64,000 nt of DNA, from the NCBI GenBank assembly GCA_963693285.1, contig OY848918.1, forward strand, positions 2,053,501-2,117,500. Direction: 5' to 3'. The DNA is from Xestospongia muta. Lineage: Eukaryota; Porifera; Demospongiae; Haplosclerida; Petrosiidae. A model generated the notes under the pieces. That model searched no databases, was not told the origin of the DNA, and was given only the letters and a program-made list of their open reading frames with translations. A program made the translations under genes and the position numbers. Of the stretch, positions 2,390-42,288 are shown piece by piece. Numbering within the stretch: position 1 is the first letter of the stretch; each line of letters begins with the position of its first letter.

Positions 2390-4668
2390 ATGAAGGAATT
2401 ATACTTTCTCATTCTTTGGTTCCTAATATGGACTACAAGAGGGCAAGGTAATAAAGTACACAGTTTGTATATTCCTCTCAAAATTCCCATTCTTACTACT
2501 TTATAGTTATTGAGAGCCCACATTCACAGGTTGCTCTACCTGATACTAATGTGACATTTACTTGTAGAGGTAGAGGTAGTCACAGTATTCTTTACTTTGA
2601 GAAACCAGACACTAATCCTATGACTGATGATCCACCTCTTGTCAAAACCAACCTCAATAATTATAACATCTTCATTGAGTTAGCTCCTCCAGTCATTGAA
2701 AATGGGGCCAAATCATTTAATTGGACTATCAGAGTTCTTGCTACTCCTGAAAATAATCTTACAGAGTTTTTCTGTCGATTTGTTGGACTTGAAAAATCAT
2801 ATGACACTGACAGATCAGTACTGACTGTTGCTAATGGTAAGATATAATTTAAAACAAAATCATTATTGTAATATGATAAGTCTTATTCTCTGTATTGTGT
2901 ACATGTGATGTGATACTCTTTCATTTAGAAACTCTATCTTCTCCTGGTACACCTCAAGTGTTGATGAGTAACCTTACTTACATGTTGATATCTTGGTCTC
3001 CACCATGGGTTCATTCTGTTAATAACTACAATGTGTCTATTACTAATACTACTACTGGTATTACTACTATATACATCACTCATAATAATGTATTTATATT
3101 GTCTTGTGATGGACAACTACTGGATCAATGTCATACTCTGGAAATAGTAGTTACAGCTAATACTGATGTGGGTTCTACAACTAGTAACATATTTTATGGA
3201 GGGTTTCCTAAAAGTACATAGCAATTGTATATTATTATTCAATTATAATTAATTATTTCTATAGCCTTGTCACCAGTGGATGAAAACACATTTAGAATTG
3301 AGATATATCAAAGACAAAATGGCAGTATAAAGACAGAGATAACATTTACAGTATGAAATATTAAAGTGCACTGTTATAATTTGTACACTGAATTTTCTAG
3401 AAACCTAGTGTTTGTTCATATCAAGTACTAAAGTATAATTATTCTGTAAAAGAACAGAACAATACTAATACAACATGGAGGAACTATACAACTTCTATCC
3501 CTGCATTAAATATTGAGGGACTTAAGAAGAACTGGTACTATCAACTTGTTTTACAAGTATGGGATGTGAACATTCCAGATGTAGTTTATGAGACAAACAA
3601 ATCATTTTGTAAGTTATTTTATCAATCCTTGAATTCATACATGTTGTAAATGTTTATGAGATATTTTATATTGATCTTTGTGGCTTGTTACAATTCATAC
3701 TTACAATTTATACAAGTGTTCATGCTATGCTTTAAGATTAATTTTGACCTTTGTAATAATTTCAGGACTACAACAATGTATACTATAATAGTATTTATAT
3801 CAACAGCTAATAAGATGAACTAATGAAACTAGGCTATTTGATTTAATTTCCTTTTATTCATACAATAAGTTAGCATGAATACTGACATCATTGATAACTA
3901 ACTTTAATGTTATTAATAATAATGACTTTTCAACAAAAGTTTTAGCTTATGCTAGAAAGCAATAATAACATGTGAAGAGTCTTATATTTCTGGTCTTATA
4001 TCATTTAGCTACTTATTTAACTAGTGTTACTCCAACTTCAACAGGTAAGGAAGACTTACATAGTATATATACAATAATAATGTAACATGTAAATTCCTTT
4101 GTGTCTACATGACTTACAATGATTATTTGGTCATATAAACTAGTACATGCTAGAGAGAACATGTCTACACATTTGGAAGAAATTAGGCACAATTAATTAC
4201 ATGATAACAGAGAGAGTCTCTGGGTAGTCTGATTGTAAATTGATATATATTTGATTCACTAAAAAATTTTTATTATATATAACTAATTGTAGTATATCAT
4301 GTTACTATTCTACAAATACTGATGTAACTATCTGTCTTTTTCTCTCCCACACACACACACACGCGTGCGCACACACACTCATTCACACATTAGTTTCTGT
4401 ATCACTAGTTTTCATTTCATCATCCACTACAAGTAAAGAGTATTATAATATATCACACAATATTTAACTTAATTATCTCCTTCTCCATTAGTACCTTCAG
4501 TTACTCCAACTACACATACAGCTGGTATTAATGATACTTTATATATCATTATTTTTGGGGTGTCTGGTGCTGTTCTATTCTTCATAATAATTGTTATTGT
4601 TATCACATCAGTGATATGTGTTATTTATATGAAATATTATACAAGTAAGTCCAATAAGCATACACTAA

Positions 4669-4700
<32 letters not shown>

Positions 4701-4832
4701 CCTGTACTCTCTAAGTGACTGCATTGATTCTCTTATTTCCTTTAATTCATAGCCAAATATACTTCTGGAAAATGCGAAAATGAAGATTATACCAATATTC
4801 CTATGAAGCACAGTCCCATATATAAGAGCTAG
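2390..4832 (+). CDS. Gene B1: Ig-FN3-FN3 receptor with short cytoplasmic tail
   Basis: Nine exons give an uninterrupted 424-residue protein: 2390-2447, 2507-2836, 2929-3213, 3265-3350, 3401-3608, 4009-4044, 4394-4432, 4492-4644, 4753-4832. Residues 1-19 are a signal peptide (MKELYFLILW...). Residues 20-129 form an Ig-type domain (Cys in TFTC and EFFC). Residues 130-224 are an FN3 domain (ISWSPPW core, GFPK end) and 225-322 a second FN3 split by a phase 0 intron. A Ser/Thr stalk spans 323-362, a transmembrane helix about 364-393, and a 31-residue tail follows. The tail has NEDYTNIPM (a pYxN-type SH2 site) and SPIYKS. All ectodomain joints except the FN3-2 intron are phase 1. The ectodomain is nearly identical to B2, which carries a long ITIM tail, so the two look like paired receptors. 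The ligand is unknown; exon structure is inferred from splice consensus and from B2. Confidence 0.8.
4350..4380. repeat. CA/CG dinucleotide microsatellite
   Basis: A run of alternating CA with a few CG steps lies in the polypyrimidine region upstream of B1 exon 7. Similar CA/CT-rich tracts precede the stalk exons of C1 and its remnants (8790-8820, 9020-9035, 10000-10010, 23935-23945). Confidence 0.7.
4666..4696. repeat. TA dinucleotide microsatellite
   Basis: About fifteen consecutive AT steps in the last intron of B1. Confidence 0.8.
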
Positions 4833-7312: not shown

Positions 7313-9227
7313 ATGTCGTACACAATTGTTGTGAGATATGGGTTCCTGGTGGTTATCTTAACAACATGTCTATCAGAAGTGGCTACTGAATGTGGTTAGT
7401 TAAAATTATATTATAGTAAGTAGGAACTGATAATAACTAGACCATATATGTATTGTTCCCTCTATCTCTCTAAGTAACACTTCATCCAAGGACAACAGTA
7501 GCTTTTGAATATACTACTGTTATTTTATTTTGTATGGCTAAAGATTCTGTTGTCAACCCTGAATTACAAGTTAATGGAACCTATACATCTGAACACAATA
7601 TAGACTATTTAAATAGTCGTGGTATATCATGGAATACAACAGATAATGGATTCTACATCTATATAAATGCATCATTGACAATCAGTGGTACTTCTGTCAG
7701 ATGTAAACTTGATACTTGTTTGAGCAATACTGCCTATCTTTATGTCACAAATGGTAAGTAAAATAGCAGTGTTCTTTTTAATGGATTATTTCTATTTTAG
7801 CTCCTCCCAATCCACCAGCACACAACCTCTTGTTTCAAAACTCAACACTACTGCTCTCAATGTCTCTTGGTCCTCACCATGGTCATATCCAGTTAACAGC
7901 TATACATTAACTATTAGTAGTCCAGATATCTCTCCACAGTACAATACTACTAACACATACTTCCTTGTATCAATGGAGACTCTACATGTTAGTGAATGTA
8001 GTCCAATAGTATTGAGTGTAGAAGCTAATACTGATGTAGGAGGTAGTGGTAACAGTGATAACACTACTACTGGCTTCCCTAAATGTAAGTTATCACACTG
8101 TCCGATATACATAGAGAAAAGATGAGTAAATTAATTATCAATATAGTACTCACTACTGTCAGCATATACTAATTGTTATAATGAATATCTTTTTGTATTA
8201 TTAGCACTAAATGACATTGACATAAAAGCTAATTTGACATGGACAACAAATGGAAGTGACAGATCACTGCTGGTTCAACTTATAGTAAGTTAACTACACA
8301 ACAGTGTATGTCTTTATTTAATTAACTAAGGAGTATTTTATTAATTGTGATAGATAAAAACAATTTTGCATCTTTATATCACAAATTAACTATTATCTAG
8401 CATCCTGCTGTATGTGATTATGATGTACTATATTATGAGTTTATTATCATCAATGAGAACACTGAAATGAACAGAACATATTCTCATCAAACCAATTCTA
8501 CTATCCTGTTAAATGTGGAGTCACTGTTCTCTCAACAAAAAGACATTGATTCTTTCACAGTTAATGTCACCATTACTAATGAAGTTAATGACACAAAAAT
8601 GAAAACATTAGTGGAAAACCTTAGTAAGTTAATGTATTGTTATTATTCAGTTAAAATATCAATATATTCATCATATTTGTATATGGTAAACTAAATTGTA
8701 AAGTGATATACTGTCTGGAACAATCCAGAAGTGGAAGTAATTATAACATTTTAATAATTCCCTCTATCTCTTTTCTTACATACTCTCTCTCTCTCTCTGT
8801 TTGTTCACTCACTCACACATCTATTTAACTAATCAGACTTTTTAGTAGTTGTTCCTACCTCAACGGATTTGATTTCATCTCTGACTTCAGGTAAAGAATA
8901 CATATATTACACCTCAACATTATTAACTAAAACTTTGTTTATTATATTACTTATGATGACCTACTGTAAGTACTAATATTTTGATCTACGACTTCGATTT
9001 TCTGTTTTCTACATACATGGACACACACTCACTCTTCATTTAACTATCCTTTAGTTGCTCCTAGTCCTACCTCAATAGTTTTAACCCCCACACCTACAAC
9101 AAGTAAGGACCAACATATGACACAAACTATAATTTTGTTATTAGTCTCTTTAGTTACTTCAACTACATCTACATTATCTATTATTTATGGAGTGACCAGT
9201 TTTACTCTATTGCTCATCATTATCTAA
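7313..9227 (+). CDS. Gene C1: Ig-FN3-FN3 protein with GPI-type C-terminus, one apparent frameshift
   Basis: Exons: 7313-7394 (signal peptide MSYTIVVRYG... to EVATEC), 7475-7753 (Ig domain, Cys in LFC and VRC, Trp in ISW), 7801-8084 (FN3, VSWSSPW core, GFPK end), 8205-8284 and 8401-8623 (second FN3 split at phase 0), 8846-8890 and 9055-9102 (Ser/Thr/Pro stalk), 9145-9227 (last exon). The exon plan is that of B1. The last exon ends in a hydrophobic run, GVTSFTLLLIII, directly followed by the stop. There is no basic or cytoplasmic stretch, which is the signature of a GPI-attachment signal rather than a type I membrane anchor. The first FN3 exon is 284 bases where the family has 285. The frame changes between the APPNPP start and the SKLNTTAL strand, so one base is missing, either by mutation or sequence error. 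Without that change the product would be about 374 residues. Confidence 0.65.
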
Positions 9228-9890
9228 ATATGACAAATTATAAGAATTACTTTGTCCATGTAATGATAATTACAATTATCATGTCTAACTTTAATAAGTT
9301 GTGAATGAAATAATGTTAAAACAAACTAAATAATGATATTCAATTGTTGTTAGTTTAATGATGAGTTAAGTGTATAAAGAAACTAATAAATTATTACTAT
9401 CTAATCAATTATTTCTTGATATGTATTGATATTAATGGAGAGTACCTTTTAGACATGGACCATTATGTGGTAGAGTTAATATATGTCACCTTTATCATTC
9501 CTTATTAATTTATAAGATCACATGACTATAATAGTGACATATTTGATATGTTTGACTGCACAATATAATAAAATTAGTAATTGTTGTTTGATCTCTAATT
9601 ATTTGTAATGTTGCCAAACTCAATTATACTGATAATAGAGTTAATATTGTTACCTATAGAGGATATTTTGATGATAACATTGAATAGTAACCAATCATGT
9701 ATATAATTACTATAGTATTTGTATTACCACAAAATACAAAGACCATCCACCAAAGTTGTTCCAAGAAATAAGTAAATTCTATGCAATATAAACTTATTTA
9801 GACATAGATACTCACTATTGAGTACTTGGTGGACATTGCTATAAATCTTATCATTAAAGTGACCTGTTGCAGTTATTAGTTAGATGAAGT
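9228..9890. repeat. 3' flank of C1 and plus-strand copy of repeat R1
   Basis: From about 9350 to 9600 lies a plus-strand copy of dispersed repeat R1 (recognisable by GGACCATTATGTGGTAGAG and GATCACATGACTATAATAG). The same sequence occurs inverted at about 10,560-10,830 and 24,470-24,760, and forward at 22,806-23,160 and 23,420-23,570. No exon is supported. Confidence 0.6.
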
Positions 9891-9895
9891 TTTTA

Positions 9896-10194
9896 GTACC
9901 TCAATATCTTCAGACACTACATGTAAGGAACAGTGATAATGACCTACTGCAAGTACTAATAATTTGATTTACAACTTTCATTTTCTGTTTTCTACACATG
10001 CACACACACACTCTTCATTTAACTATTCATTAGTTACTCCTATTCCTACCTTAATAGGTTTAACCCCCACACCTACAACAAGTAATGAAGAACATGCAAC
10101 ACAAACTACAATCTCTTCAGCTACTTCTACTACATCAACATTATCTATCATTTATGGAGTGACCAGTTTTACTCTATTGCTCATCATTATCTAA
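9896..10194 (+). pseudogene. C2: 3'-terminal remnant of a C-type gene
   Basis: Only the stalk and last exons of a C1-like gene survive: a short stalk exon near 9896-9923, 10034-10081 (stalk, LTPTPTT) and 10121-10194 (SIIYGVTSFTLLLIII then stop). They are open, in phase and very close to C1, but no leader, Ig or FN3 exon lies upstream. The GPI-type C-terminus is retained. Confidence 0.6.
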
Positions 10195-11779
10195 ATATGA
10201 CAAATTATAAAATTATGTTGTTTATGTAATGATAATTACAATGTTATGTTTAATTTTAAAATAATGAGTAGTGAATGAAATAGTGTTTAAACAAAATATA
10301 TATGATATTTATTCAAGAGTTGATAGTTCAATGATGAGTAGAATTTGTAAAGATAATAAATTTACAACATAATCAGTTATATCTTGATATATCATTGATG
10401 AGTACTTTTTAAATGTAAATCATTTTATGGTAGAATTAATATATGTTATCTTGGTCCTTTGTAATTAATTATGATCAAATGACTATAATATTGATAATTT
10501 ATATTATAGAAGATATATTGATGGTGTAGTCAAGTAGTGACTAATTATACTGAGTTGTAGGAGTTATTATTGAGATCTCTGTACACACAGTAAGTAAAAA
10601 GATCAAAGTAACTGAAATATTTCAAACACGTCGCTATTATAGTCATGTGATCACGATTAATCGGTAAGGATTTATCAAGATAACGTATATTAACTCTACC
10701 ACATAATGGTCCACATATAAAAGTTCTCTCCATTAATATGAATGACTTATCAAGAAATAACTGATTAGATAGTAATAATTTATTAGTTTCTCTACACTCG
10801 TAACTCATCATTGAACTAACAACACTTAAATATATATCATTTATTAGTTTGTTTAAACATTATTTCATTCACAACTCATTAAAGTTAAACATGATATTGT
10901 TATTATCATGTCAGAGATGAATTCAAATTTGTTGAGGTATAAACAACTACTGAATAGTTGAATGAAAAGGTGTTTGTGAGTGTGTAATATGGGAGGAACA
11001 GAGAATTAAATTATAAATTAAAATATTTATGTTAATAAACATTAACAGAATTAAGACTAATTCTTATGTATTATTAACCAAGTTATAATGTTTAGGTGTA
11101 ATAAATGTTCTACCTGTAACTCATCAATTCTGTTGTAGTTAAACAATTATTGGATAATCTAGAGAGAGTATATAAAAAATGTCGGTAAAAATATCTGTTG
11201 TCAACTATTTCATTTGTGATCTAAAGTTTTGTTTTGCTATCTTGTGCTATACATTGACTTACTAAGGTTTTTCATTATGTTTTCATTATTGTCTCATTAA
11301 CTTTATTAGTAATTGTGACATTAACTGTTAAAGAATTACTATCTGTTTGTTGGGAGAACAGTGAATCCACATTTAACGGGATAATAGAATTGGTTTGACA
11401 AGAATATGTTTTGTTGATTCCAGTGTTCTCATTGATGACAATACTTTGTGTGGGAGCTTACTACTCTTCTATTTTGACAATGTTGTTGTCACATATTTCA
11501 TTACACTCCGTAGCCAAACTCAGTTATACTGACAATCTGTAATATATAGAGTATATATTAATGATGTAATCAAGTGGTAACCAATCATGTATAATATTAT
11601 TATAATACTTGTATTACTACAAAATGCAAACAGTAGCCAACAAAACGTACCAAGAAAGTTGTAACAGGAAATAAGTAAAATACTATGCTATATATGTATA
11701 TGATTATTACCATAAATCTTATCATTAAACTAAGTTGTTGCAGTTATTAGTGAGATCTCTGGATTACATATATTTGAGA
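10195..11779 (-). repeat. Inverted R1 repeat and 5' flank of A2
   Basis: On the minus strand, 10545-10811 is the reverse complement of the 9350-9560 R1 copy, giving a large imperfect inverted repeat around the C2 remnant. This copy keeps an 88-codon open frame (starting MMSYECRETN). The frame is broken in the other copies, so I do not call it a gene. From about 10,850 to 11,780 is the A2 5' flank, repeated at about 24,780-25,704. Confidence 0.5.
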
Positions 11780-13504
11780 ATGTATTGTTCTCAGAGTCTA
11801 CTACATCTTATCTTCTTTGCTCGACTGCTATTAATACCAAGGAATATTGTAGCTACTGATTTTTGTAGTAAGAGTCACTGATATAATAGTGGCATGTTTG
11901 ATATGTTTGAGTGCTCAATATAATATCATTAGTATTAGTATTTGGGGATTGCTCTCTAACTATTGTATGATGACAATGCTGACATAATAGAATTGTAGTA
12001 ATAAGACAATTCTTGCCTGCACAAGACACAATGTAAGCACTAGTATATTTAACCTCTTGTAAGAATATCAAAAAGAATTTCAGTTTTCTGATTTTATTAC
12101 TTACTGTGTGTAGTTTGTGTGGGAGCTTACTACTATTTTATTATGGCAACATTGTCACCATACATTTAAGTACACTCCATAGCCAAACTCAGTTATACTG
12201 ACATAATCAAGTGGTAACTAATCAAATTTATTATTATAATACTTGTATTACTACATAATACAAACTGCAGCCAAAAAAAAACAGGAAATAAAGTGTATCA
12301 GAAAATAAATTGTAACAGGAAATAAGTAAAATACTATGGTATGTATGCATGTGATTATTACTATAAAAGTAATTGTTAAACTGAGTTCTAGCAGTTATTA
12401 GTGAGATCTCTACTGGATTATATATGTGAGAATGCCTTGTTCTCAGAGTCTACTACATCTTATTTTCTTTGCTCTACTGCTATTAATACCAAGGAATATT
12501 GTAGCTACTGATTTTTGTAGTAAGTGTCACTAAATATTAATATTGAAGTATATATGTCATAATATCCTATGTACACAGTTATACTATGATTACAACATTA
12601 CTTTAGTGTAATAATAATATTTTTTATTATAGATCCAATTCTTCATAATCTACCTGATACAATTGTTGCTCTTATAAATGAGAAAGTCTTTCTCACCTGT
12701 GAAGTGTCCACAACAGGATCTGGTGATAATACTGATCTTATAATAGATAATATACATAGTGCTGGAGCAAATAGTATGATTGATGCTATGTATCATGCTA
12801 GGAATATCACTTGGACATATTTTAGTTCTGATCCTAATGATGAAAAAACTGGATACAATATAACAATAATTGCTGGAGAAAATAACAATGGTACTACATT
12901 TCAATGTCGAGTTGACAATTGTGCCACAAAGAAAGCAACACTAATTGTTGTAAATGGTACAATATTTGTAACTTAGAATAATATGATGTTTATTTGTTTT
13001 CTTTTTAGCTCTGTCATCTACTCCTAATCCTTCCACTGTTCTGTTACTGAACACTACTGGTCTCTCCCTCTTCAAAATCACCTCATTTATAAACACTCCT
13101 TCTTTGTCAGACTATTCAGTAGTTTTTACTACCTCAATATCTTCACACACTACAAGTAATGAACACTGTACAACATAAACTGTGTTATCTCTCACTTCTC
13201 TTATATCAGTCCCTTCAGTTATTCCAACTTCAAATACAGCTGGTAATAATGCTGATTTATTTGTCTATATTTATGGATTGTCTGTTGGTATTGTTCTACT
13301 GATCATCATCATCATTATTGTAATAATATCAGTGATATATATTATAAAATGTCATACTAAAAGTGAGTCCAATATATTGTATATAGTGATGACAATGTAT
13401 ACTGTATTCATTTGTAAAGCTATCTCCTTCATTTCATAGCCGAACCTACTTCAGAAAAAAGTGAATATAGTAACATTTGTTATCATGATTATAAAGTGTG
13501 TTGA
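11780..13504 (+). CDS. Gene A2: Ig-domain receptor with ITIM-like short tail and two leader exons
   Basis: Two near-identical leader exons lie 652 bases apart, each with ATG and its own donor: 11780-11867 (MYCSQSLLHL...) and 12432-12519 (MPCSQSLLHL...). Both end phase 1 and either would splice to the shared exons 12633-12956 (Ig), 13009-13155 (truncated FN3 start fused to a Ser/Thr stalk), 13210-13362 (transmembrane) and 13440-13504 (tail). With the second leader the product is 258 residues and fully open. Residues 1-29 are signal peptide and 30-137 an Ig domain (Cys in LTC and FQC, Trp in ITW). The membrane helix spans about 206-232 and is very isoleucine-rich. The tail contains SEYSNI (residues 245-250), which matches the ITIM consensus S-x-Y-x-x-I and also pYxN. 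Probable type I cell-surface protein; a signalling role is inferred. Confidence 0.75.
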
Positions 13505-14104: not shown

Positions 14105-15890
14105 TCTAGTCTCAGAAGAATACACTAGAGAAGAAGGAATTATACTTTTTCGTTCTTTGGTTCCTAATATGGACTACAAGAGGGCAAGGCAATAAAGTAC
14201 ACAGTTTGTATATTCCCCTCAAAATTCCTACTCTTACTACTTCATAGTTATTGAGAGCCCACAATCACAGGTTGCTCTATCTGATACTAATGTGACATTT
14301 ACTTGTAGAGGTAGAGGAAGTTACAGTATTCTTTATTTTGTGAAACCAAACACTAATCCTGATCCACTCTTTGTCAAAAGTAACCTCAATGATCACAGTG
14401 TCTTCATTAAGTTGGGTCATCCAGTTATTTGGGTTTAATTATTTTCTATGGGCTATTCAAGTTCTTGGTACTCCTGAAAATAACATTACATAATTTTCTG
14501 CTGATTTGTTGGACTTGAAGAATCATATGACACTAACAGATCAGTACTGACTGTTGCTCATGATAAGTTAATTTAAAACAAAATTATAATTGTAAAGATA
14601 TCTTGAAACTTCAAGATTTATGTTCAGTATTGTGTACATGTAATGATCTCCTCTCATTTAGAAATTCTATCTTCTCCTGGTACACCTCAAGTGTCAATGA
14701 GTTCATTCTGTTAACAACTACAATGTCTCCATTACTAATACTACTATTGGTATTATTACTATAAATATCACTCATAATAATGTATTAATATTGCACAGCA
14801 AAAATGTATTGAAGACATTCATTGTTTTCATGATGTAAATGAAATGGTTCATATTATAAATACAATAATAAATATTCCACTCATTTTGTACCATGTATTT
14901 TATAGGTAATGAATGTATATATGATGGATTTATTACAATTGTAGTGTTATGTGTTTTATTGAATAAATTAATGAAAAAATGTTGTGTTGACCATCTCAGA
15001 GGTCAATTTAGATGCATCGCAGACGATGGTCCACAACACAACCTATCCAAGATTGTCTTGGCTTTTTATATATTTATCTACTTACGATTTTGCCTTCAGG
15101 GTCTTGTGGGGCGCGGGAGGAAGTACTATGAACTCATTAACAACTATTATGAAAATTACTGACATCCGTGAACAAAAGTTTGTTTAAATAACTAAAACTA
15201 AGGGCCAAGAATAAAACTGGTCCCATTTTGAGCAAACTAAAACAACACTACTAATTATATATATATATATTTATTTGACTTTTTTAGAGCAAGTAATAAA
15301 TAAATTAGTAAATAAATAAATAATTGAAGTCAAGTTAATATCTTAAAGTTCCAAGAGAGGACGGCCTGCATCATCCTCCATACCTATACCACTCTTCCAT
15401 TTCACTCTAGAACCTTTTAAACACAAGTCTGTTGTATAAATCAACAAGAAAGATAGTCTAGCTCTTGTAGGAAAAACAATGTATATATAATTTACATTAA
15501 TGGTACATCATTTTGTCATTATTATTACAATCATTGGATTAGTGTAAGTTAATAACCAACATGAAAACACAATAAAACAATTGTCTGTAAAACAAGTTAT
15601 TTTCTACATTGATTCTAATAAAGAGTGGTAAAGTATCAGCAATGAAACAACAATACTACATTAATTGGTAAGTTTTAACTAATGGAAATACTGCAACTAA
15701 TGTAAACCATCCATTTTCCAAACGTTAAAAAGTGAACTTTTTCCCTGTGTTATCTCGTGATGGACAACTACTGGATCAATGTGATACACTGGAAATAGTA
15801 GTTACAGCTAATACTGATGTGGGTTCTACAGCTAGTAGCATATTTCTGAATTTTCTAGAAACCTAATGTTTGTTCATATCAAGGTATGGT
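14105..15890 (+). pseudogene. B-type receptor pseudogene split by an insertion
   Basis: Homologous to B1 exons 1-5. The leader exon (about 14128-14188) has AAG in place of ATG and a GC instead of a GT donor. The Ig exon (about 14249-14574) has internal deletions and stops. The FN3 exon (14662-14793 and 15750-15843) lacks the ISWSPPW core and is split by a 956-base insertion. The start of exon 5 (near 15,860) ends in the repeat block shared with 6340-6720. The second duplication unit carries the same lesions without the insertion (28,040-28,850), so decay preceded the duplication and the insertion came later. Confidence 0.75.
14794..15749. mobile_element. 956-base insertion with short terminal inverted repeats
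   Basis: The paralogue at 28,690-28,750 runs straight across this point, which fixes the insertion. The left end reads CACAGCAAAAATG and the reverse complement of the right end reads CACAGGGAAAAAG, an imperfect 13-base terminal inverted repeat. Flanking triplets are TTG and TTA, possibly a diverged 3-base target duplication. Ends and target size are most like CACTA or PIF/Harbinger-type DNA transposons, but there is no transposase. Inside are two stretches less AT-rich than the surroundings (about 14,990-15,120 and 15,350-15,420). The second reads on the minus strand as an open run ending GRPLLEL-stop and could be captured gene sequence. Confidence 0.6.
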
Positions 15891-22619: not shown

Positions 22620-22796
22620 CTAAATAAACAATAAATTTTATTAACAAAAAATTAATTATATCAAATAGCTGTATGGGCCATCTCCCATAGTTTATCATCT
22701 ATAAAAATACAACTCTATTATATTCAAAAAATTGTAATAATTTTAATTTGTTTATAGATAGTTTAACATACTGAGAGTAATGTTTGTTTTAGTAAT

Positions 22797-28039: not shown

Positions 28040-28850
28040 AATACACTAAAGAAGAAGGAATTATGCTTTCTCATTCTTTGGTTCCTAATATGGACTACAA
28101 GAGGGCAAGGTAATAAAGTACACAGTTTGTATATTCCTCTCAAAATTCCTACTCTTACTACTTCATAGTTATTGAGAGCCCACATTCACAGGTTGCTCTA
28201 CCTGATACTAATGTGACATTTACTTGTAGAGGTAGAAGTAGTTACAGTATTCTTTACTTTGAGAAACCAGACACTAATCCTGATCCATCTTTTGTCAAAA
28301 AATAACCTCAATGATCACAGTGTCTTCATTAAGTTGGGTCATCCAGTCATTTGGGTCCAATTATTTTCTATGGGCTATTCGAGTTCTTGGTACTCCTGAA
28401 AATAACATTACATAATTTTTCTGCTGATTTGTTGGACTTGAAGAATCATATGACACTGACAGATCAGTATTGACTGTTGCTCATGGTAAGTTATAATTTA
28501 AAACAAAATTATAATTGTAAAGATATCTTGAAACTTCAAGATTTATGCTCAGTATTGTGTACATGTAATGATCTCCTCTCATTTAGAAATTCTATCTTCT
28601 CCTGGTACACCTCAATTGTCAATGAGTTCATTCTGTTAACAACTACAATGTTTCCATTACTAATACTACTACTGGTATTACTACTATAAATATCACTCAT
28701 AATAATGTATTAATATTGTCTTGTGATGGACAACTACTGGATCAATGTGATACACTGGAAATAGTAGTTACAGCTAATACTGATGTGGGTTCTACAGCTA
28801 GTAGCATATTTCTGAATTCCCTAGAAACCTAATGTTTGTTCATATCAAGG
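28040..28850 (+). pseudogene. B-type receptor pseudogene, uninterrupted copy
   Basis: Same lesions as 14,105-15,890: leader without its ATG, an Ig exon with frame loss near 28,295 and stops, and an FN3 exon missing its middle. The 956-base insertion is absent. It keeps a normal GTAATA donor after the leader. It ends in the first codons of exon 5 (28,825-28,850). Confidence 0.75.
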
Positions 28851-31503: not shown

Positions 31504-33074
31504 TTACATTGATGATGAACTGCTATCACTTGGCATTGTCTCATGATCAATAACATAAGATGATTTATTTTGTGGGTAATTCTCATCATGTTGCTCTGGA
31601 GTTAAACAAGCATCTCTTGTTTGATTATTAACAAAGAATTGACCAGCAGCACACTTAAAAAGAAAAAAATGTAATTTTGATAATCATTCATTGAAAATTA
31701 TCTATTTTTATCCATTCGTCTATCTATACCTTAGAAACTTTTTCCTTGCCCATTTGTTGTTTTTTACTCCTACACAGACACACTCCCATAACTACAATCA
31801 CCAGTATCAGACCAATCAATACTGTCACTAATATACCAATACCAGCTTCAACACCATAGACCACTGAAATAAACAATAAATTTTATTAACACACAATTAA
31901 TTATATCAAATAGCCGTATGGGTCATTTCCTATAGGGATAATTTCTCAGCAATAAAAATAGCACTCTATTATATTCAAAAACATTTCATTCATTTTAATT
32001 TGTTTATCTAGTTATAACATACTGAGAGTAATGTTTGTTTTAATACACTCCTCCTCAAATTGTTAAACTACTGAGCCATCAAGTTGACAACAGAGCTTTA
32101 AGTAATATATACCTAGTACTGTAGTATCTATTGGTCATGATCAGTAAATGTGACTGGTACTATAACAATACTTGATGTATATAGCGTATTAGTAATATTG
32201 GGTAATTATGGGCTTACCAGATTGAGGCAAACTGATTGTGGGAAATGTTACTTCTGGAGATAATACTGGAATACTAGAGGAGTATATACTGTAGGTAGTG
32301 CTAGTGATTGTAGTAGTGATGATAGAGGTTGTTGTATGAGGTGATTGTGATGACATATTACATGATACAGAAGTAGGTATTAGAGATACAGTTGATGTAC
32401 TAACGATATCATAAAATCTAGTACAATCACATGTTGATTCTATGTCATCACTGGTAAGTAGTTCAGAACAGCTGCAAGGAAGGACTTCAAGAATGGATGA
32501 AGTAACAGTTGTTGCCATGGTAACAGTAGTCGTGTTGGAAAGTACCTTGGTGACAGTGGTGGATGGAACAGAACATTTTGGGACAGGCATATTATTGCAT
32601 TCTTTTAATAACAAGGTTTTTTCTGTTTTTTGAGTACAACTTGGTTTTGAACTTTTGCAAGCAACAGTGTATATACATGAAGTTAACTTGTATGTAGGAA
32701 TAAAGCCTTCTTTTTTAAAAGTGATATTAATAGATGGATCAGGAGTGACTGGACATGGTAGAATGTTACAGTTAGTATTCACATTAGAACTGTTCATACA
32801 AGTTTTAGTCTCTACCTCATTTGTGATAAAATTTAAAGTATTTTTATCATTGAGTATTATAACTGGAAGTCCACATGATACTGTACATGATATTGATATG
32901 TAAGTACTATTGTTAGTGGAATTATGACAATCAGTTTCTGATTTGATGTCTAGAACAGCTACAGAGATAGAGAGATAAAGTTTATTAAAGATCAACTGTA
33001 GTAACATTACCTGGACACTCAGAAGATACTTGTAGTACAGAAACAATTATCAGTAATAGAAGGAGTGCAGCCAT
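31504..33074 (-). CDS. Gene D2': Cys-rich, mucin-stalked type I membrane protein
   Basis: Exons 33011-33074, 32218-32958, 31730-31863 and 31504-31653, with the same lengths and phases as D2, give an intact 362-residue protein. Cysteine pattern, stalk, membrane helix and SSYVID tail are kept. Differences from D2 are scattered substitutions, for example in the stalk (SPHTTTSIITT against PPHTTTPTITT) and Cys for Tyr at the first tail residue. Retention of an open frame in both copies while neighbouring D1 and D4 have decayed suggests the D2 pair is functional. Confidence 0.8.
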
Positions 33075-33181
33075 AATTTAGGATCAACTTCTGTGCTCTA
33101 ACAGTAGTTGCTAACTATAACTAACTGCAGACTCAGCCACACCTAGTATACGGAATATGCATTTTATTATGTTTCAGTATA

Positions 33182-33201
33182 CGATCGTTCACTATAACCA
33201 C
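33182..33201. promoter_or_regulatory. Conserved divergent-promoter box, copy 2
   Basis: Same box as 20141-20160, followed here by CACGTG, an E-box palindrome. It lies between D2' (minus) and E2 (plus). Confidence 0.5.
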
Positions 33202-33927
33202 GTGTGGATGTTAGCAACAAAGAAACTATCATCTTTTAAGTAAATATGTGCAAAAACGTAATTTTGTATAAGAGCCACTAGTATTTTAACAAGCATATTA
33301 TTTTTACTTTATTATGTATCACTGTTAAGTAAGTGTTAAAATATCAGTGTTAAATAAGTGTTAAGATATCAGTGTTAAATCAATGTTAAGATATCAATGT
33401 TTAGAGAAATTGATTAAACATAATGTGTTTAACACACTCAATAATATTGAATCTGTTTTATCACTGTTCCAAAACAAAATTAATTACTTTTGTTATTTAG
33501 ACTCTAAAAGAATGAATAATAGATAGTATAAATTCACACGTTAACATTCGGTGATTATGTTGAAGCTGGTGATAACATTGATTCATTGAAGCTCAATTCA
33601 ATTAACTTGTAAGAGAATAAAGTAATACAAGTCTTTAGAATGAAAGAATTATGTCTATTATGTCTTCCTTTTCTTTCATTTCTAATAGTAACTACAACAG
33701 GGTAATTTAAAGTACACTGATTATACCAGTCAATAATAATAATAATAATAGTTAATAGTAACTACAATAATAACAATTGCCTTTCTATAATAATAGGTAC
33801 AATTCTATTGTTGTTACTTCTCTTCATACTCCATCAAATGTAATCTAATCAACATTGTCAACCAAACCAAGCAAGTGATCAAGGACTACACCACATTGAG
33901 CTAGTGTATTTATTAATAGTTTGGTTT

Positions 33928-34054
33928 GGTTGACAATATGGACCATCTTCAACTTGTACAGGATAACCATCAGTATAGTTGTTATATATATATATATTAA
34001 CAACTATGCTGATGGTTATCCTGTACAAGTTGAGGATGATCTATATTATCAACC
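33928..34054. repeat. Long hairpin, first copy in E2
   Basis: Same arms and TA-rich loop as 20887-21011. Confidence 0.8.
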
Positions 34055-34118
34055 AATCCAAGCTATTGATCAAGGACTATACCACATTGAGCTAGTGTAT
34101 TTATTAATAGTTTGGTTT

Positions 34119-34243
34119 GGTTGACAATATGGACCATCTTCAACTTGTACAGGATAACCATCAGTATAGTTGTTATATATATATATTAACAACTATGCTG
34201 ATGGTTATCCTGTACAAGTTGAGGATGATCTATATTATCAACC
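34119..34243. repeat. Long hairpin, second copy in E2
   Basis: Tandem duplicate of the preceding hairpin, nearly identical. Confidence 0.8.
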
Positions 34244-34789
34244 AATCCAAGCTATTGATCAAGGACTATACCACATTGAGCTAGTGTATATATAACAATT
34301 ACACTGGTGGTTATCTTGTACAAGTGGAGGATGATCCATATTGTTAACCAAACTAAACTATTGATCAAGGGTGATTATCCTGTACAAGTGAACAATAACA
34401 AAATATAAACAATGATACTAACTATATTACTATATATTATATATAAGTTGTGTAGGTAATTAGTTATATTATTGTGTTTAAAGTAGAAATTACATGCCGT
34501 TTGTGTGCTATATGTATATACCTTAATTCAGCAACCTTTATTACAGTGTAATAGTCATGCTTTTAAATTTTAATTAAAAATTTACTAAATCTAAACAATC
34601 GCTGATGTAATAACTAGTACTGTTAAATATTCTGAAGTAATATCACTTGATTGTTGTTTCATTAGTACATCAACTGCATCACTAACATCTACCTCTATAT
34701 CACAAAATGCTATTACCTAGATACTGATACTATTACCTATAGTAGGATAATAATAGATAATAATATCATTAAAATTATAATTTATTGAC

Positions 34790-35229
34790 ATGTTGGTTCT
34801 ATGTCATCATTTGTAAATAGTTCAGCATAAATTCAACTTGTATGCAGGAATAAATCTTTGTTTTTATACAGTGATATAAATAGCTGGATCAGGAGTGTAT
34901 CTGGACATTTTAGATAATCACAGGTTGTAATTGTACCTGAACTGTTTACACAAGTTTTGATGACTACCTCATTTGTGATAATGCTAAATGTATTTCCATC
35001 ATCGAATAGTATAACTGGAAGAGCACATGATACTGTACATGATATGATATGGATAAATACATTCCAAGTAGATAAATTATGACAGGAGTATCTGATTTGA
35101 TTTTCAGAACAGCTACAGTAATTGTAGAGAATTTAGTAAAATTCATTACTACTAACAATACCTATCTGGACACTCAGGAGATACCTCTATTGCAGTAATG
35201 GCTATAAGTTGTAGAAACAACACAGTCAT
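34790..35229 (-). pseudogene. D4': second-unit copy of the D4 fragment
   Basis: Leader start at 35229 with the same displaced donor and broken ectodomain as D4. Confidence 0.65.
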
Positions 35230-35525
35230 TGTTGATTAACCTCTAAGATCAAGATCTAACTGCAGATTGAGCCACACCTCTTTTTATAGTTGTAGTAACA
35301 CGTGATGTCAGTATATTCAATATGCTATAATACAGTGGTTGTTTCTAAAAGACAACTTTATGAACATATTAGTTATTAACTGACTGTTATACATTATTAT
35401 GATGAGTTGTGAATGAACATAAACTGATATTTAACACAATGTTATTTGTTGTTGTTATATTATTAAATTGATGATGAGCTGCTGGGTAATCTCTCATCAC
35501 TTGTCTTGTGATCAATAATGTAGGA

Positions 35526-37056
35526 TTATACTGGTTGTGGACTATTATTATCTTGTGGTATCAAGCGTTCTAGAGTTAAACTAGTACCACTAGTCTGATC
35601 ATTCTTAAAGAACTGACCTTTTGTAACAGCATACTTTTAAAAAGAAAAAATGTAATTTTAATAATCATTCATTGAACATTTATCTGTACATTCAGCCATT
35701 TATCCATCCATCTATCTATACCACAGAAATCTTTTTCTCATTCCTTTGTTGTCTTTTACTCCTACACAGACACACTCCCATAACCACAATCACCAGTATC
35801 AGACCAATCAATACTGTCACTAATATACCAATACCAGCTTTAACACCATTTTCAACTAAATAAACAATAAATTTTATTAACAAAAAATTAATTATATCAA
35901 ATAGTTGTATGGGCCATCTCCCATACTTTATCATCTATAAAAATACAATTCTATTATATTCAAAAAATTATATTAATTTTAATTTGTTATAGATAGTTTA
36001 ACATACTGAGAGTAATGTTTGTTTTAGTAATGTACTAACATTCCTCCTCAAATTGCTAAAATAGTGAGCCATCAAATTTAACAACAAAGCTTTAAGTAAT
36101 ATATACCTAGTACTATAGTATCTATTGATCATGATCAGTAAATGTGACTGGTACTATAACAATACTTAATGTATATAGTGTATTAGTAATAAAGGGTAAT
36201 TATGGGCTTACCAGATGAACTGATTGTTGGACATGTTATTTCTGGAGTTAATACTAGAACACTAGAGGAACACATACTGTAATTATTGCTAGTGATTGTA
36301 GTGGTAATGGTAGGGGTTGTTTTATGAGGTAGTTGTGATGACATATTACATGATAGCAAAGTAGGTATTAGTGATACAGTTGATGTACTAATGATATCAA
36401 AACAACTAGTACAATCACATGTTGATTCTATGTCATCACTGGTAAATTGTTCTGAACAGGGAAGGACTTCAAAAATGGATGAAGTAACAGTCGTTGCCAC
36501 AGTAACAATAGTTTTACTGAAAATTGGCTTGAAAGCAGTGGTAGGTTGAATAGTACATTTTGGGACAGGCATAATATCACATTCTTTTAATAAAAAGGCT
36601 TTTTCAGCTTTTTGAGTACAATTTGGTTCTGAACTTTTACAGGCAACAGTGTACACACATGAAGTTAACTTGTACATAGGAATAAATCCTTGTTTTAGTA
36701 CAGTGATGTTAATAGATGGATCAGGAATGACTGGACATTCTATATAGTTACAGTTTGTAACCACATTAGAACTGTTCATACAAGTTTTGATGACTACCTC
36801 CTTTGTGATAAAATTTAAAGTACTTTTACCATTGAGTATTATAACTGGAAGACCACATGATACTGTACATGAGATTGATACGTAAGTACTATTGTTAGTA
36901 GAATTATGACAACCAGTTTCTGATTTGATGTCTAGAACAGCTACAGAGATAGAGAGATAAAGTTTATTGAAGATCAACTGTAGTAACAATACCTGGACAC
37001 TCAGTAGATGGTTGCAGTACAGAAAAAGTTATAAGTAGTATAAAGAGGGCAGCCAT
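35526..37056 (-). CDS. Gene D5: Cys-rich, mucin-stalked membrane protein with truncated tail
   Basis: Exons 36993-37056 (leader MAALFILLIT..., ending STECP), 36212-36940 (ectodomain), 35722-35855 (transmembrane), 35526-35633 (tail) join in phase into 344 residues. The ectodomain follows D2 (ISCTVSCGLP, SCVYTVACKSS, STCDCTSCFD) but diverges in the stalk and lacks one CSC pair. The tail ends at TAA (...NNSPQPV), where the orphan copy at 22,230-22,397 reads on through SSYIID to a serine-rich end. D5 has therefore lost the C-terminal tyrosine motif. The divergent partner is the B/E chimera at 37,317; a conserved box at 37,175 lies between them. Confidence 0.75.
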
Positions 37057-37316: not shown

Positions 37317-37762
37317 ATGAAAGAATTATATCTTAACTTTCTTTGGTTCCTAATATGGACAACAACAGGGCAAGGTAAAAAAGTGGTATATTCCCTTCAG
37401 TTAAAAATTCCCACTTTTATTATTTATATAGTTATTGAGAGCCCACATTCACAGATTGCTCTACCTGATACTAATGTGACATTTACTTGTAGAGGTAAAG
37501 GTAGTCACAGTATTCTTTACTTTGAGAAACCAGACACTAATCCTATGACTGATGATCCACCTCTTGTCAAAACCAACCTCAATAATTATAACATCTTCAT
37601 TGAGTTAGCTCCTCCAGTCATTGAAAATGGGGCCAAATCATTTAATTGTACTATCAGAGTTCTTGCTACTCCTGAAAATAATCTTATAGAGTTTTTCTGT
37701 TGATTTGTTGGACTCAAAGAATCATATGACACTGACAGATCAGTACTGACTGTTGCTAATGG
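37317..37762 (+). pseudogene. B-type leader and Ig exons with a nonsense mutation
   Basis: Leader 37317-37374 (MKELYLNFLW..., ending TTGQ) and Ig exon 37433-37762 are nearly identical to B2. In the Ig exon CGA has become TGA right after EFFC, so the domain is cut at its second cysteine. The following FN3 exon begins near 37,852 and is replaced after a few codons by repeat R2. The leader ends phase 1 and the E3 exon starts phase 1, so a leader-to-E3 splice that skips the Ig exon would be in frame. Confidence 0.7.
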
Positions 37763-37867
37763 TGAGATATAATTTAAAACAAGATTATAATTGTAAAACA
37801 TCAAGATTTTTCCTTCATATTGTGTGCATGCAATGATCTTCTTTCGTTTAGAAACTCCATCTTCTCC

Positions 37868-38015
37868 ATCAAAGTTTGATTATAGTATGTCCCTTTTCCT
37901 TAGCAACAACATTAGCACATTTTTATTTGCTAATTACTAGGGTTATCCTCTATTTGGTATTATATATCCTTTATTTGTTATATAATTGACATCAAAATAT
38001 GTAAATATAATAGCA
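37868..38015 (+). repeat. Interspersed repeat R2
   Basis: An element of about 145 bases (GGGTTATCCTCTATTTGG... ATTGACATCAAAATATG) lying in the FN3 exon of the chimera. Related copies in either orientation occur repeatedly in the 42.7-62.4 kb array (for example about 42,960-43,080 forward; 43,545-43,655 and 44,860-44,990 reverse). Short, non-coding and dispersed, so MITE-like; I did not find clear terminal repeats. Confidence 0.55.
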
Positions 38016-38026
38016 GCTATATTATT

Positions 38027-38590
38027 TTGTCAATTAATGTTAAGAAAATAACAATTGCTTTCTATATAATAGGTACAGTTCTATTATTGTTACTTCTCTT
38101 CGTACTCTATCAATCTAATCAACATTGTCAACCGAACCAAGCTATTGATCAAGGACTACACCACACTGAACTAGTGTATAACAACTATTCTGGCAGCTCT
38201 CCTGCACAAGTCAAGGATGATTCATACCGTCAACCAAACCAAGCTATTGATCAAGGACTACACCACACTGAACTAGTGTATAACAACTATTCTGGCAGCT
38301 CTCTTGCACAAGTCAAGGATGATTCATACCGTCAACCGAACCAAGTTATTGATCAAGGACTACACCACACTGAACTAGTGTATAACAACTATACTAGCAC
38401 CTATCCTGTACAAGTCAAGGATGACCCATATTGTCAACCAAACCAAGCTATTGATCAAGGACTACACCACACTGAACTAGTGTGCACCAACTACACTTGT
38501 GGCTATCCGGTACAAGTCAATGATGACCCATATTATCTACTATTACTATTATACTATTCTTTTACTACTACTATTATACTATTCTTTTAA
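38027..38590 (+). CDS. E3: transmembrane segment with four 34-residue tyrosine repeats
   Basis: Open for 187 codons. The likely exon starts after the acceptor ATATAATAG at 38,071 and reads GTVLLLLLLFVLYQ (membrane helix). Four 102-base repeats follow, starting at about 38,129, 38,231, 38,333 and 38,435. Each repeat encodes QPNQAIDQGLHHTELVYNNY plus a QVKDD(S/P)Y segment, giving two or three tyrosines per unit. VYNN fits the pYxN (Grb2-type SH2) consensus. The protein ends in a second hydrophobic run (YYLLLLLYYS..., ILFF) derived from a TAC/TAT-rich microsatellite. The partner exon is probably the leader at 37,317, with or without the broken Ig exon. E1 and E2 are broken relatives. Function unknown; a multivalent SH2-docking tail is inferred. 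Confidence 0.6.
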   Translation: MSINVKKITIAFYIIGTVLLLLLLFVLYQSNQHCQPNQAIDQGLHHTELVYNNYSGSSPAQVKDDSYRQPNQAIDQGLHHTELVYNNYSGSSLAQVKDDSYRQPNQVIDQGLHHTELVYNNYTSTYPVQVKDDPYCQPNQAIDQGLHHTELVCTNYTCGYPVQVNDDPYYLLLLLYYSFTTTIILFF

Positions 38591-38672
38591 TAAAATTTAA
38601 AGTACTTTTACCTAATATACGGAGTATGCCAGTCATACCAGTATTATTTTGTCAATATAATGTTTCAGTACA

Positions 38673-38692: not shown

Positions 38693-38955
38693 GTGGGTTC
38701 GTATCAATGTTATATATATAATTAAGACAAATCAGTCTTCATGTAATAAACATTCTTTACTGAATCTATTTTATGATTGTTTTAGAAGCAAAATTGTTTA
38801 CTTTTATTTATTGAACTTTCTAGGAATGAACAACAGCTGGTGTACGTTCAAAAGTAAATGATAATTCTCCATGTAGCAGAATACAATCAGTGGAGCTATC
38901 CAGAGAATCGGTCACTGCAGCTTGTAAGAGAATACAGTGAAAGGCATCTTAAGAA

Positions 38956-41900
38956 ATGAAAGAATTATATCTTAACTTTCTTTGGTTCCTAATATGGACA
39001 ACAACAGGGCAAGGTAAAAAAGTGGTATATTCCCTTCAGTTAAAAATTCCCACTTTTATTATTTATATAGTTATTGAGAGCCCACATTCACAGATTGCTC
39101 TACCTGATACTAATGTGACATTTATTTGTAGAGGTAGAGGTAGTCACAGTATTCTTTACTTTGAGAAACCAGACACTAATCCTATGACTGATGATCCACC
39201 CCTTGTCAAAACCAACCTCAATAATTATAACATCTTCATTGAGTTAGCTCCTCCAGTCATTGAAAATGGGGCCAAATCATTTCATTGGACTATCAGAGTT
39301 CTTGCTACTCCTGAAAATAATCTTACAGAGTTTTTCTGTCGATTTGTTGGACTTGAAGAATCATATGACACCGATAGATCAGTACTAACTGTTGCTAATG
39401 GTAAGATATAATTTAAAACAAAATTATAATTGTAAAACGATAAATCTTATCCTCTGTATTGTGTGCATGTAATGTGATCCTCTCTCATTTAGAAAGTCTA
39501 TCTTTTCCTGGTATACCTCAAGTGTTGATGAGTAACCTTACTTACATGTTGATATCTTGGTCTCCACCATGGGTTTATTCTGTTTATAACTACAATGTGT
39601 CCATTACTAATACTACTACTGGTATTACTACTATATACATCACTCATAATAATGTATTAATATTGTCTCGTAATGGACAACCACTGGATCAATGTCATAC
39701 TCTGGAAATAGTAGTTACAGCTAATACTGATGTGGGTTCTACAACTAATAACATTTTTTATGGAGGATTTCCTAAAAGTACATAACTATTGTATATTATT
39801 ATTAAATTATAATTAATTATTTCCATAGCCTTGTCACCAGTGAAAGAAGAAACAATTAGAATTGATATATATCAAAGACAAAATGGCAGCATAAGGACAG
39901 AGATAACATTTAGTGTACGTAATATAAAGTGCACTGTTATAAGTTGTACACTGAATTCTCTAGAAACCTGATGTTTGTTCATATCAAGTACTTAAGTATA
40001 GTTATTCTGTAAAAGAACAGAACAATACTAATACAACATGGAGGAATTATACAACTTCTATCCCTGCATTAAATATTGAGGGACTTAAGAAGAACTGGTA
40101 CTATCAACTTGTTTTACAAGTATGGGATGTGAACATTCCAGATATGGTTTATGAGACAAACAAAACATTTTGTAAGTACCATAATATCATTGTTGCTCTT
40201 ACATATGTTTTCGATTATTTTACAAGAAGTTTAAAGTTGCAAGTCTGTGTTGTTGTTACGCAAATCTTTTTTCTCTTTTCCTGTTAACACTGCAATGCTT
40301 TATATTGTATAGTCATTGTTCTAATATAACTCCAATATACTAATTATATAGTGTTTACACGAACAGTTAAGATGAGGCCAGTTGACAAACTAGACAATTG
40401 TATCTTTACACAATGTCATAACAAATGTTAATAGTTACCATACCACAGTTCAATTAACTTTTAGGATAAACATGTTTACTGCTTTTATTGTTTTTGACAA
40501 CAATGTCTTTCAAGAACAAAAACTTTCACTTCATGCACATAATCACAACTAGTGATTCAACAATAGGAAGATAAATTAAACTGTCAAACTTCCTAGAAGT
40601 TGTACATGTTGTTGATTATATAGTACAGTAACTAGAAGTTATGATATGTCTCTGTTATCTTTAGGCACATCTTTTGTTAGTTCTACGAAGGCAACAACAG
40701 GTAGATTTAATATTAATATAATGATATCACTATACAGTCCAGTAAAATGTGTCAACTCTTATAATTTGTCATTGTTTTTGTAGGTACTCATATAACAGAT
40801 ACTACTGCCACTAATACTAGTAGTAGTACTACTAATACTGCTGCTTCAACAGGTATAGTACACTATAATACTGATAGAGTACAGTATTTAACATAAATTA
40901 GCTAAGTCATGAAGTACTTTAAAAATGACTGACTTACTCTAAAAGGAAGAATGGAGAGTGTTAATATCTACATAGTATTTCTACAGTTGAAGAAATATTC
41001 TAGTTTATTTTATGACATCATACCATGCCTTTTCTAAATAAAATTTAATTAAATTAACTTTTGCAACAATATTTTCTTTCATTATCATTAATTTATTGAT
41101 ATAAGTAACAGATCAATGCCTAAAGTATTATTTCAAATGTTTTTTGCTTGTAATTAGAAGGTAAATATATCATTGATATAATGTTACAAAATATTAAGTA
41201 TACAATAATAAAAAAGACCATTACATTGTTAACTGTTAATTAACAAGTCATCTATGTATCTTTTTATTACTAGATAAAGATTTAGTTTTACTTATTGGAG
41301 GAGTAACAGGAGCAGGATTGTCTATTATAGTTATCATTGCTGTCCTGACATGTGCATTTATTATGTTATGTATTTTGGTCATAAGAATACACAAAAGATT
41401 GCAACAAAACAGTAAGATAAAGTATTTTGATAAAATATTAATCAAGTATTTCATTTATAGTTAATGTTAATGAAGACCCTGAGAAAGGAGATTTTAATAA
41501 AAAAGAAGAACTACAATTTTGTGAAGAAAAGAAAAACCGAGAAAGAAAATACATTGTCCCTCAAGTGATGGCCACAAATCCCATATATGAGGGTAACTCC
41601 TCTGTCTATGAATGTCTACCTGAAATGAGAGATCTGAAGAGTGTGTCTGAACAGCCAATACATCATCCTACTTCAATGTACTTAGAAATTCCCCCACAAG
41701 TTAGTTTGAAAAGATTATAAGTTTACACTTAAGGCAAGAGAATATAGTATAATTTATCATAACATTGATTATCTTATTTCAATTCTTATTAAACACAAAT
41801 CCTAAGATATCACAATAATCACTGTTGATATCAATAATAAGTGTTTTGACCAGAATTATAATATATAATATTATGAAGTATCACCTACATATCACATTGA

Positions 41901-42288
41901 TGTAATTGTATTCAAATTACAATAATAAGTACATGAATAGAAACTATGATATTATATGTTCATTGTTCATACATTTCTGTCATTTATCATCCATCTGTTA
42001 TTGCTTATTCATCCATCATAGGTACCTCCTCCTCGTAAGATGAGTATCGACAGTCCAGGTATCAAATCAGGCACTCAGCTGTCATTATCCAAGTTACCTG
42101 GCAATACCAGTGTGGGCGGTATTGATCATACTGATAATGAGGAGTACATGTACATGAAAGGAAGTAATGGACAACCTCGGTACCTCAAGTCTCCTGTGAT
42201 GAAGCTAAGAATGGAGGGGATGTCAGATGAGAAGAGACTTCAGATAAAGGCAGTGAGGAATGACAATAACAAAGAAGAGAAACAGTAA
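38956..42288 (+). CDS. Gene B2: Ig-FN3-FN3 receptor with long ITIM/NPxY/YxxM tail
   Basis: Ten exons join without a stop into 571 residues: 38956-39013, 39071-39400, 39493-39777, 39829-39914, 39964-40171, 40665-40700, 40784-40852, 41274-41411, 41461-41699, 42022-42288. Signal peptide 1-19, Ig 20-129 (Cys in FIC and EFFC), FN3 130-224 and 225-322, Thr/Ser stalk 323-357, membrane helix about 371-394. The 177-residue tail carries RKYIVPQV, NPIY (443-446, NPxY type), SVYECL (451-456) and SMYLEI (475-480). The last two match the ITIM consensus and their tyrosines are 24 residues apart. It also has a proline-rich IPPQVPPPRK junction and EYMYM (Y525-M528, YxxM, PI3-kinase type). In studied families ITIMs recruit SHP-type phosphatases; that role here is inferred. 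The ectodomain is almost that of B1, so B1/B2 resemble paired receptors. The stalk/TM/tail exons are re-duplicated three times downstream. Confidence 0.85.

Follow-up and report, generated by a model that had tools for sequence, protein, structure and literature searches.

Vertebrate immunity provides the best-known cases of paired receptors whose ectodomains have been exchanged. A CEACAM study (PMC5112662) describes clustered immunoglobulin superfamily (IgSF) genes with similar ligand-binding domains, a long-tailed member carrying an immunoreceptor tyrosine-based inhibitory motif (ITIM) and partners that bear immunoreceptor tyrosine-based activation motifs (ITAM) or ITAM-like motifs; in Xenopus ceacam genes, conversion is confined to a shared exon and the flanking introns are poorly conserved. 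A report on Siglec-11 and Siglec-16 (PMC5701461) presents an inhibitory gene and a partner with ectodomains alike by repeated gene conversion and relaxed constraint on the converted exons, and one on Xenopus FcR-like genes (PMC2413239) presents similar ectodomains on two types of transmembrane (TM) segment, with and without charged residues. The latter paper adds that receptor pairing appears to have taken place in invertebrates too, so pairing outside vertebrates is no new idea. Among invertebrates, a review (PMC12065747) describes clustered IgSF receptors in Botryllus (FcoR) and Hydractinia (Alr) that carry ITIM and hemITAM or ITAM motifs. No description of sponge receptors of paired layout turned up in the open-licence literature searched, which is no proof of absence. 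Here we describe such a layout in a stretch of 64,000 nucleotides (the window; contig C2, 2,053,501-2,117,500) of a 158-Mb genome in 28 contigs, where two genes, B1 and B2, carry near-identical ectodomains of an Ig and two putative FN3 domains (Ig-FN3-FN3) on different tails. The original prediction had taken the locus to be probably that of an early animal; it is probably from a sponge, the one piece of evidence being that the nearest protein found is from Amphimedon.

The two gene models are given below (aa, amino acids); the B2 splice 41699|42022 is backed by the sequence PPQVPPPRKM in that Amphimedon protein.

2390..4832, + strand: B1 gene; 8 exons, splice sites, open frame of 411 aa, motifs and TM segment
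B1 exons, 5' part: 2390-2447 (leader), 2507-2836 (Ig), 2929-3213 (FN3-1), 3265-3350 and 3401-3608 (FN3-2)
B1 exons, 3' part: 4009-4044 (stalk), 4492-4644 (stalk and TM), 4753-4832 (short tail); optional stalk exon 4409-4432
38956..42288, + strand: B2 gene; 10 exons
B2 exons, 5' part: 38956-39013 (leader), 39071-39400 (Ig), 39493-39777 (FN3-1), 39829-39914 and 39964-40171 (FN3-2)
B2 exons, 3' part: 40665-40700 and 40784-40852 (stalk), 41274-41411 (TM), 41461-41699 and 42022-42288 (tail)
2386..3614, + strand: B1 stretch homologous to B2 (92.8%)
38952..40177, + strand: B2 stretch homologous to B1, to B0a (96.0%) and to B0b

As had been predicted, exon lengths from the leader to FN3-2 are equal in B1 and B2, and the ectodomains are near-identical (279/303 mature residues). 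The B1-B2 DNA alignment (92.8% over 1,235 columns) runs from ATG-4 to position +6 of the exon-5 donor, with no further homology beyond these points above the BLASTN cut-offs used. Two more genes, B0a and B0b, lie outside the window, starting 21.8 and 9.5 kb upstream of it; both follow the 8-exon plan of B1 with open frames. B1 and B0b served as a control, aligning at 94.3% over 5,887 columns without a break at either point where the B1-B2 match ends. B1-B2 homology is thus confined to the leader, Ig, FN3-1, FN3-2 and their introns, while the 5' flank and everything downstream are different. B0a, B0b and B1 have blocks in common at 92-95% over 1.5-5.9 kb, flanks and tails included; the match of B2 to each of them is restricted to ATG-4 through about exon-5 donor +6. 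The shared stretch therefore comprises five exons with introns, in contrast to the single shared exon of Xenopus ceacam (PMC5112662). Across the six pairs of B genes, 275-297 of 303 ectodomain residues are identical, and all three tandem short-tailed genes are open over 8 exons although their units differ by 5-8%.

Further members were sought by tblastn in a 244-kb region around the window and by whole-genome exon searches, whose match counts are lower bounds. B ectodomains, Ig exons of a second family (C) and B2-type tails all group in one cluster on contig C2, apart from a relic on contig C1. The at least 11 B-Ig matches comprise four open genes (B0a, B0b, B1 and B2), one copy with a stop (X), five relic pieces in the cluster and the contig-C1 relic, which lies near 15.95 Mb and is ruled out as an intact distant B gene by internal stops. 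C-type Ig exons gave at least 11 matches (11/11 in the cluster) and B2-type tails at least 14 (14/14). For the B1-type TM exon, the best 17 of at least 31 matches fall in the cluster; the other 14 are weak, 12 of them on other contigs. Neighbouring genes with highly similar ectodomains and different tails thus stand in one cluster, and this paired layout is real in the present assembly.

In a four-gene alignment, B0a proved to be a mosaic. It sits in a tandem unit like that of B1, and its leader and intron 1 group with B0b and B1, yet it is nearly B2 from the late Ig exon into FN3-2, so that its mature ectodomain shares 297/303 residues with that of B2 (6 differences). Thirty sites are common to B0a and B2 alone, from window position 39375 of B2 (late Ig) to 40047 (in FN3-2), introns included. 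Mismatches between B0a and B2 number 2/92 in intron 2 (10-11/92 to B0b and B1), 2/285 in FN3-1 (12-13/285), 1/51 in intron 3 (5/51), and 2/86 and 4/208 in the two FN3-2 exons (8-10/86, and 8/208 to each of the two). The significance of such segments was estimated on the four sequences with 10,000 shuffles of the 104 polymorphic columns, after removal of every column in which any row had a gap; X and the relics did not enter the test. The best-segment score of B0a-B2 was reached in 0/10,000 shuffles. Scores for the other pairs were 0/10,000 for B0a-B1, 3/10,000 for B0a-B0b, p 0.0105 for B0b-B1, 0.12 for B0b-B2 and 0.18 for B1-B2; the longest-run statistic gave 0/10,000 for B0a-B1, p 0.02 for B0b-B1, 0.16 for B0a-B0b, 0.11 for B0b-B2 and 0.39 for B1-B2. 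Exchange among the short-tailed B genes is therefore likely as well. Where the relics cover the 30 tract sites, they mostly show the B0b/B1 state (D2 12/15, D1 8/11, a second piece of D1 4/4, X 5/7, R1 7/11, R2 8/11), so the state shared by B0a and B2 looks derived. Ectodomain sequence has thus passed between a short-tailed gene and the long-tailed one, as reported for Siglec-11/16 and Xenopus ceacam genes, and we conclude that exchange between tail types, in the manner of gene conversion, is real in this assembly, with one event seen.

The tails differ as the original prediction held, B1 ending in ~30 signal-poor residues and B2 in 177, but its notion of opposite signalling finds no support. 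A motif scan of the B2 tail returned SVYECL and SMYLEI, which fit the ITIM consensus, together with NPIY and YMYM. YMxM suits PI3-kinase and NPxY suits PTB domains. Tails of B0a, B0b and B1 measure 30-40 residues, depending on the TM window chosen.

A search with B2 of a database of 5.77 billion proteins, in which 7,571 candidates were scored, gave one match at E<=0.01, P0001 (95% of the query, 6e-71), which is the uncharacterised 556-aa product of Amphimedon queenslandica LOC109583760. It has the whole B2 plan of ectodomain, TM segment and tail, and keeps MATNPIYE with its NPIY, SLYMDI (one ITIM-consensus site), PPQVPPPRKMSxDSPGIKSGT and YMYM; it differs from B2 in an overall identity of only 34% and in reading PIYDIM at the other site. 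Locally, tblastn with P0001 covered the 244-kb region and a 20-kb stretch around the contig-C1 relic. The first ectodomain exon has the Ig fold that assigns it to the IgSF. For the putative FN3 domains, a structure model of P0001 (predicted local distance difference test score, pLDDT, 46) matched FN3 tandems at 3e-7 to 2e-5 over ~200 columns, and the TM-scores were low; the Pfam fn3 match of C1 fell below passing, and B1 and B2 have no listed fn3 match.

Candidate readers for such tails exist in the genome, which holds both SHP-2-like and Syk-like genes. SH2-SH2-PTP arrangements occur at five places (one on contig C5, three on C3, one on C8), and the C5 copy, the sole one compared with solved structures, matched PTPN11 at 1.4e-196. 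Four of these are long open frames, apparently intronless, in the order SH2-SH2-tyrosine phosphatase (C3:11956215-11961741 and C5:8741067-8742560); the fifth set, on C8 at 8076976-8078868, is split over several frames. At a tandem SH2 locus on C7, the one SH2 segment tested matches ZAP-70 at 3e-39, with SYK next, and kinase-like pieces were seen by eye in the list of open reading frames.

Tandem units of ~6 kb repeat the 3' part of B2 across 40619-64000 and on to about 74000, six units in all, of which units 5 and 6 lie beyond the window:

40619..46603, + strand: unit 1; B2 stalk, TM and tail exons with 3' sequence
46604..52582, + strand: unit 2, tail only; no ectodomain, stalk exon 7 interrupted by a stop, frames open in TM and tail
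52583..58297, + strand: unit 3, tail only; no ectodomain, stalk exon 7 interrupted by a stop, frames open in TM and tail
58298..64000, + strand: unit 4, tail only; no exon 6 found and only about half of exon 7, exon 9 frameshifted

By tblastn, no ectodomain was found in units 2-6; units 4-6 are broken, whereas the TM and tail frames of units 2 and 3 have stayed open. In the 3' part, ~4.2 kb of columns compared between units 1 and 2 are 100.0% identical. Against unit 1, differences in exons 8-10 versus surrounding non-coding sequence number 19/641 vs 40/1,285 for unit 2, 22/641 vs 40/1,286 for unit 3 and 19/641 vs 39/1,286 for unit 5. For unit 6, the oldest, they are 36/642 vs 132/1,213, half the divergence, so the B2 tail appears to have been constrained earlier. 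We read the array as a recent, roughly neutral duplication of a previously constrained B2 tail. Use of units 2 and 3 as alternative-splice cassettes is not favoured, given that exons 8-10 of units 2, 3 and 5 diverge like non-coding sequence and units 4-6 are broken; speaking for cassettes, the stop-bearing stalk exon 7 has 69 bases and could be skipped, and the unit 6 divergence is taken instead as older constraint.

The C family shows a comparable change of ends. Negative coordinates below are bases before the window start.

7313..9227, + strand: C1 gene; leader-Ig-FN3-FN3 with an uncharged hydrophobic end of glycosylphosphatidylinositol (GPI) type; FN3-1 exon frameshifted
window -39662..-36760: C0; C-type ectodomain with B1-type TM segment and short tail, open over 419 residues
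window -4558..-2645: Cb, upstream sister of C1; C ectodomain with uncharged hydrophobic end, frame intact

C1 had been proposed to share the domain plan of B1 and B2 and to end in a GPI-type signal. The plan and the uncharged hydrophobic end are present, but the frameshift in its FN3-1 exon in this assembly leads us to reject this copy as a working GPI member. Cb ends in the same hydrophobic stretch; this C-terminus was judged by the open frame alone and the GPI-type label is putative. C0 and Cb have 273/289 ectodomain residues identical, and the 3' part of C0 is 87-94% identical in DNA to B0a, B0b and B1 (pieces >200 bases). Since the C family repeats the swap, changing ends appears to be a habit of the locus and not peculiar to B. 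Mammalian CEACAMs include GPI-anchored members; to our knowledge they contain no FN3 domains, and the sequence searches run gave no link to them.

We favour, with a probability of about one half, a reading in which B2 is an inhibitory-type receptor and B0a, B0b and B1 are exchangeable, signal-poor look-alikes acting as paired or decoy receptors. B2 would be the signalling member, its tail becoming phosphorylated upon ligand binding; phosphorylated SVYECL and SMYLEI would engage SHP-type phosphatases, YMYM a PI3-kinase and NPIY a PTB protein. The short-tailed proteins would bind the ligand of B2 through nearly the same ectodomain and dampen, divert or trap it, and may be under other control, as their 5' flanks gave no match to that of B2. 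Ectodomain copying between short- and long-tailed genes would keep the binding faces matched. The paired-receptor role first proposed thus retains its clustered genes, shared ectodomain, different tails and a long tail with ITIM consensus (seen in B2, and as SLYMDI in P0001), but loses the activating partner: no means of activation (charged TM residue, ITAM or ITAM-like motif) could be established for one. Decoy-like twins are favoured over classical pairs because this feature was looked for and not found, and the short-tailed members look silent or decoy-like, not activating. From the sequence we infer a receptor role, expression, a common ligand, phosphorylation, inhibitory output and decoy function alike.

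Several observations weigh against this reading. Shuffling the B2 tail yields two ITIM-consensus hits in 3.1% of cases; by itself the consensus is therefore weak, and conservation in P0001 is the stronger evidence; there, one of two ITIMs is conserved, with PIYDIM as the counterpart of SVYECL, and no short-tailed relative of P0001 was found among the 7,998 candidates with the most words in common, to which scoring was limited. YMYM points to PI3-kinase, an enzyme that is not inhibitory. In the partners, the motif scan found neither ITIM nor ITAM in the tails of B0a, B0b and B1, and the best 21-residue TM windows of these genes and C0, scanned for D/E/K/R/H/N/Q, contain none of these residues. 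The hemITAM-like EDYTNI occurs only in B1, its counterpart being EDSIKI/EDSINI in B0a and B0b. Ratios of nonsynonymous to synonymous divergence (dN/dS) for the stalk-TM-tail exons of the three short-tail pairs (0.030/0.066, 0.101/0.102 and 0.077/0.033) show no clear constraint, as would suit a decoy without signalling but decay as well. As for the exchange, B0a is no nearer to B2 in intron 4 (4/49 vs 4/50 to each of B0b and B1), and the longest B0a-B2 run is not unusual (p 0.21), because scattered differences interrupt it. The region is also repeat-rich and could contain assembly errors.

Much of this would follow from ordinary recent duplication without functional pairing, in which tandem copies of an Ig-FN3 adhesion receptor have drifted and decayed, and one ectodomain has come by chance to sit on several 3' ends through unequal crossing-over. 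The many broken relics (X, D1, D2, C1 and tail units 4-6) fit such a history, as do the divergence of exons 8-10 between unit 1 and units 2, 3 and 5, which is like that of non-coding sequence, and the ectodomain dN/dS of 0.68-0.87 in four of six pairs (0.40 for B0a-B2; 1.85 for B0b-B1, with 22.5 nonsynonymous vs 3.5 synonymous changes). However, all three tandem short-tailed B genes remain open despite the 5-8% unit divergence, the exchanged tract joins genes of different tail type, and the B2 tail has both motifs kept to Amphimedon and, from unit 6, signs of earlier constraint. We consider duplication without pairing rather unlikely.

Classical paired receptors, in which short-tailed members activate through an ITAM-type adaptor or B1 signals from EDYTNI to a Syk-type kinase, share the layout and ectodomain exchange described for CEACAM and Siglec pairs, and the genome does offer EDYTNI in B1 and a Syk/ZAP-70-like SH2 gene. 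The uncharged TM cores of B0a, B0b, B1 and C0, the missing ITAM and the lack of the EDYTNI tyrosine in B0a, B0b and C0 make this improbable. The short tails here differ in this from CEACAM partners (PMC5112662), and the TM cores from the FcR-like pairs (PMC2413239); the Siglec-16 partner, too, is set apart by activating properties and measured glycan binding (PMC5701461). We assign an even smaller chance to a polymorphic allorecognition locus, whose ectodomains would bind each other between individuals and diversify through exchange: the B ectodomains are alike, not diverse (275-297/303 over six pairs), and the usually named sponge candidate is the aggregation factor. A review mentions this factor for reaggregation. 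Clustered, duplicated IgSF genes with tyrosine motifs do resemble the Hydractinia alr and Botryllus FcoR settings as described in PMC12065747, but the FcoR plan (Ig and sushi) differs from Ig-FN3-FN3.

If the B genes are expressed as the inhibitory-plus-decoy reading has it, the design of vertebrate paired receptors, with ectodomain conversion and an SHP/PI3K-type tail, would be present in a sponge, and a single versus several origins of paired receptors would become testable. Tentatively, the locus may represent a sponge paired immune system of inhibitory and decoy or counter-receptors, built on Ig-FN3-FN3 without a detected link to vertebrate families and with a tail kept in two sponges; the strategy would then be far older than vertebrates or have arisen independently at the base of animals.

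As to the locus at large, the odds seem to us balanced that it is a birth-and-death cluster of membrane receptors with a common Ig-FN3-FN3 ectodomain on different membrane ends. Its other features in the window are:

37317..38590, + strand: X, third leader and Ig copy, 94.2% to B2; in-frame stop in the Ig exon
14127..14793, + strand: D1, decayed B-type ectodomain relic, 76-79% to B2/B1 DNA
28046..28811, + strand: D2, decayed B-type ectodomain relic
12632..13283, + strand: A-type gene with one Ig exon; its TM exon is related to the B1 one
26553-27204: further copy of the A-type gene
near 813-1140: third copy of the A-type gene, Ig matching in two frames

X is probably a decayed gene. Its 3' part holds an open TM and tail frame (38054-38590) with about four near-identical 34-residue repeats, TELVYNNY occurring in three and TELVCTNY in the fourth. 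This repeat tail, a third tail type, has relatives at 20794-21139 and 33835-34371 and on the minus strand at distances of ~91 and ~116 kb from the start of the window. A large block, 9461-22802, is duplicated at 23423-36037 (~96-98% identical in the main pieces), either as a real duplication or as a false haplotype copy. On the minus strand, 19148-20005, 32189-33046 and 36183-37028 contain Cys-rich open frames of 281-285 residues; a Pfam search of one such frame gave no match. TM exons, for example 22480-22698, share the strand of these frames.

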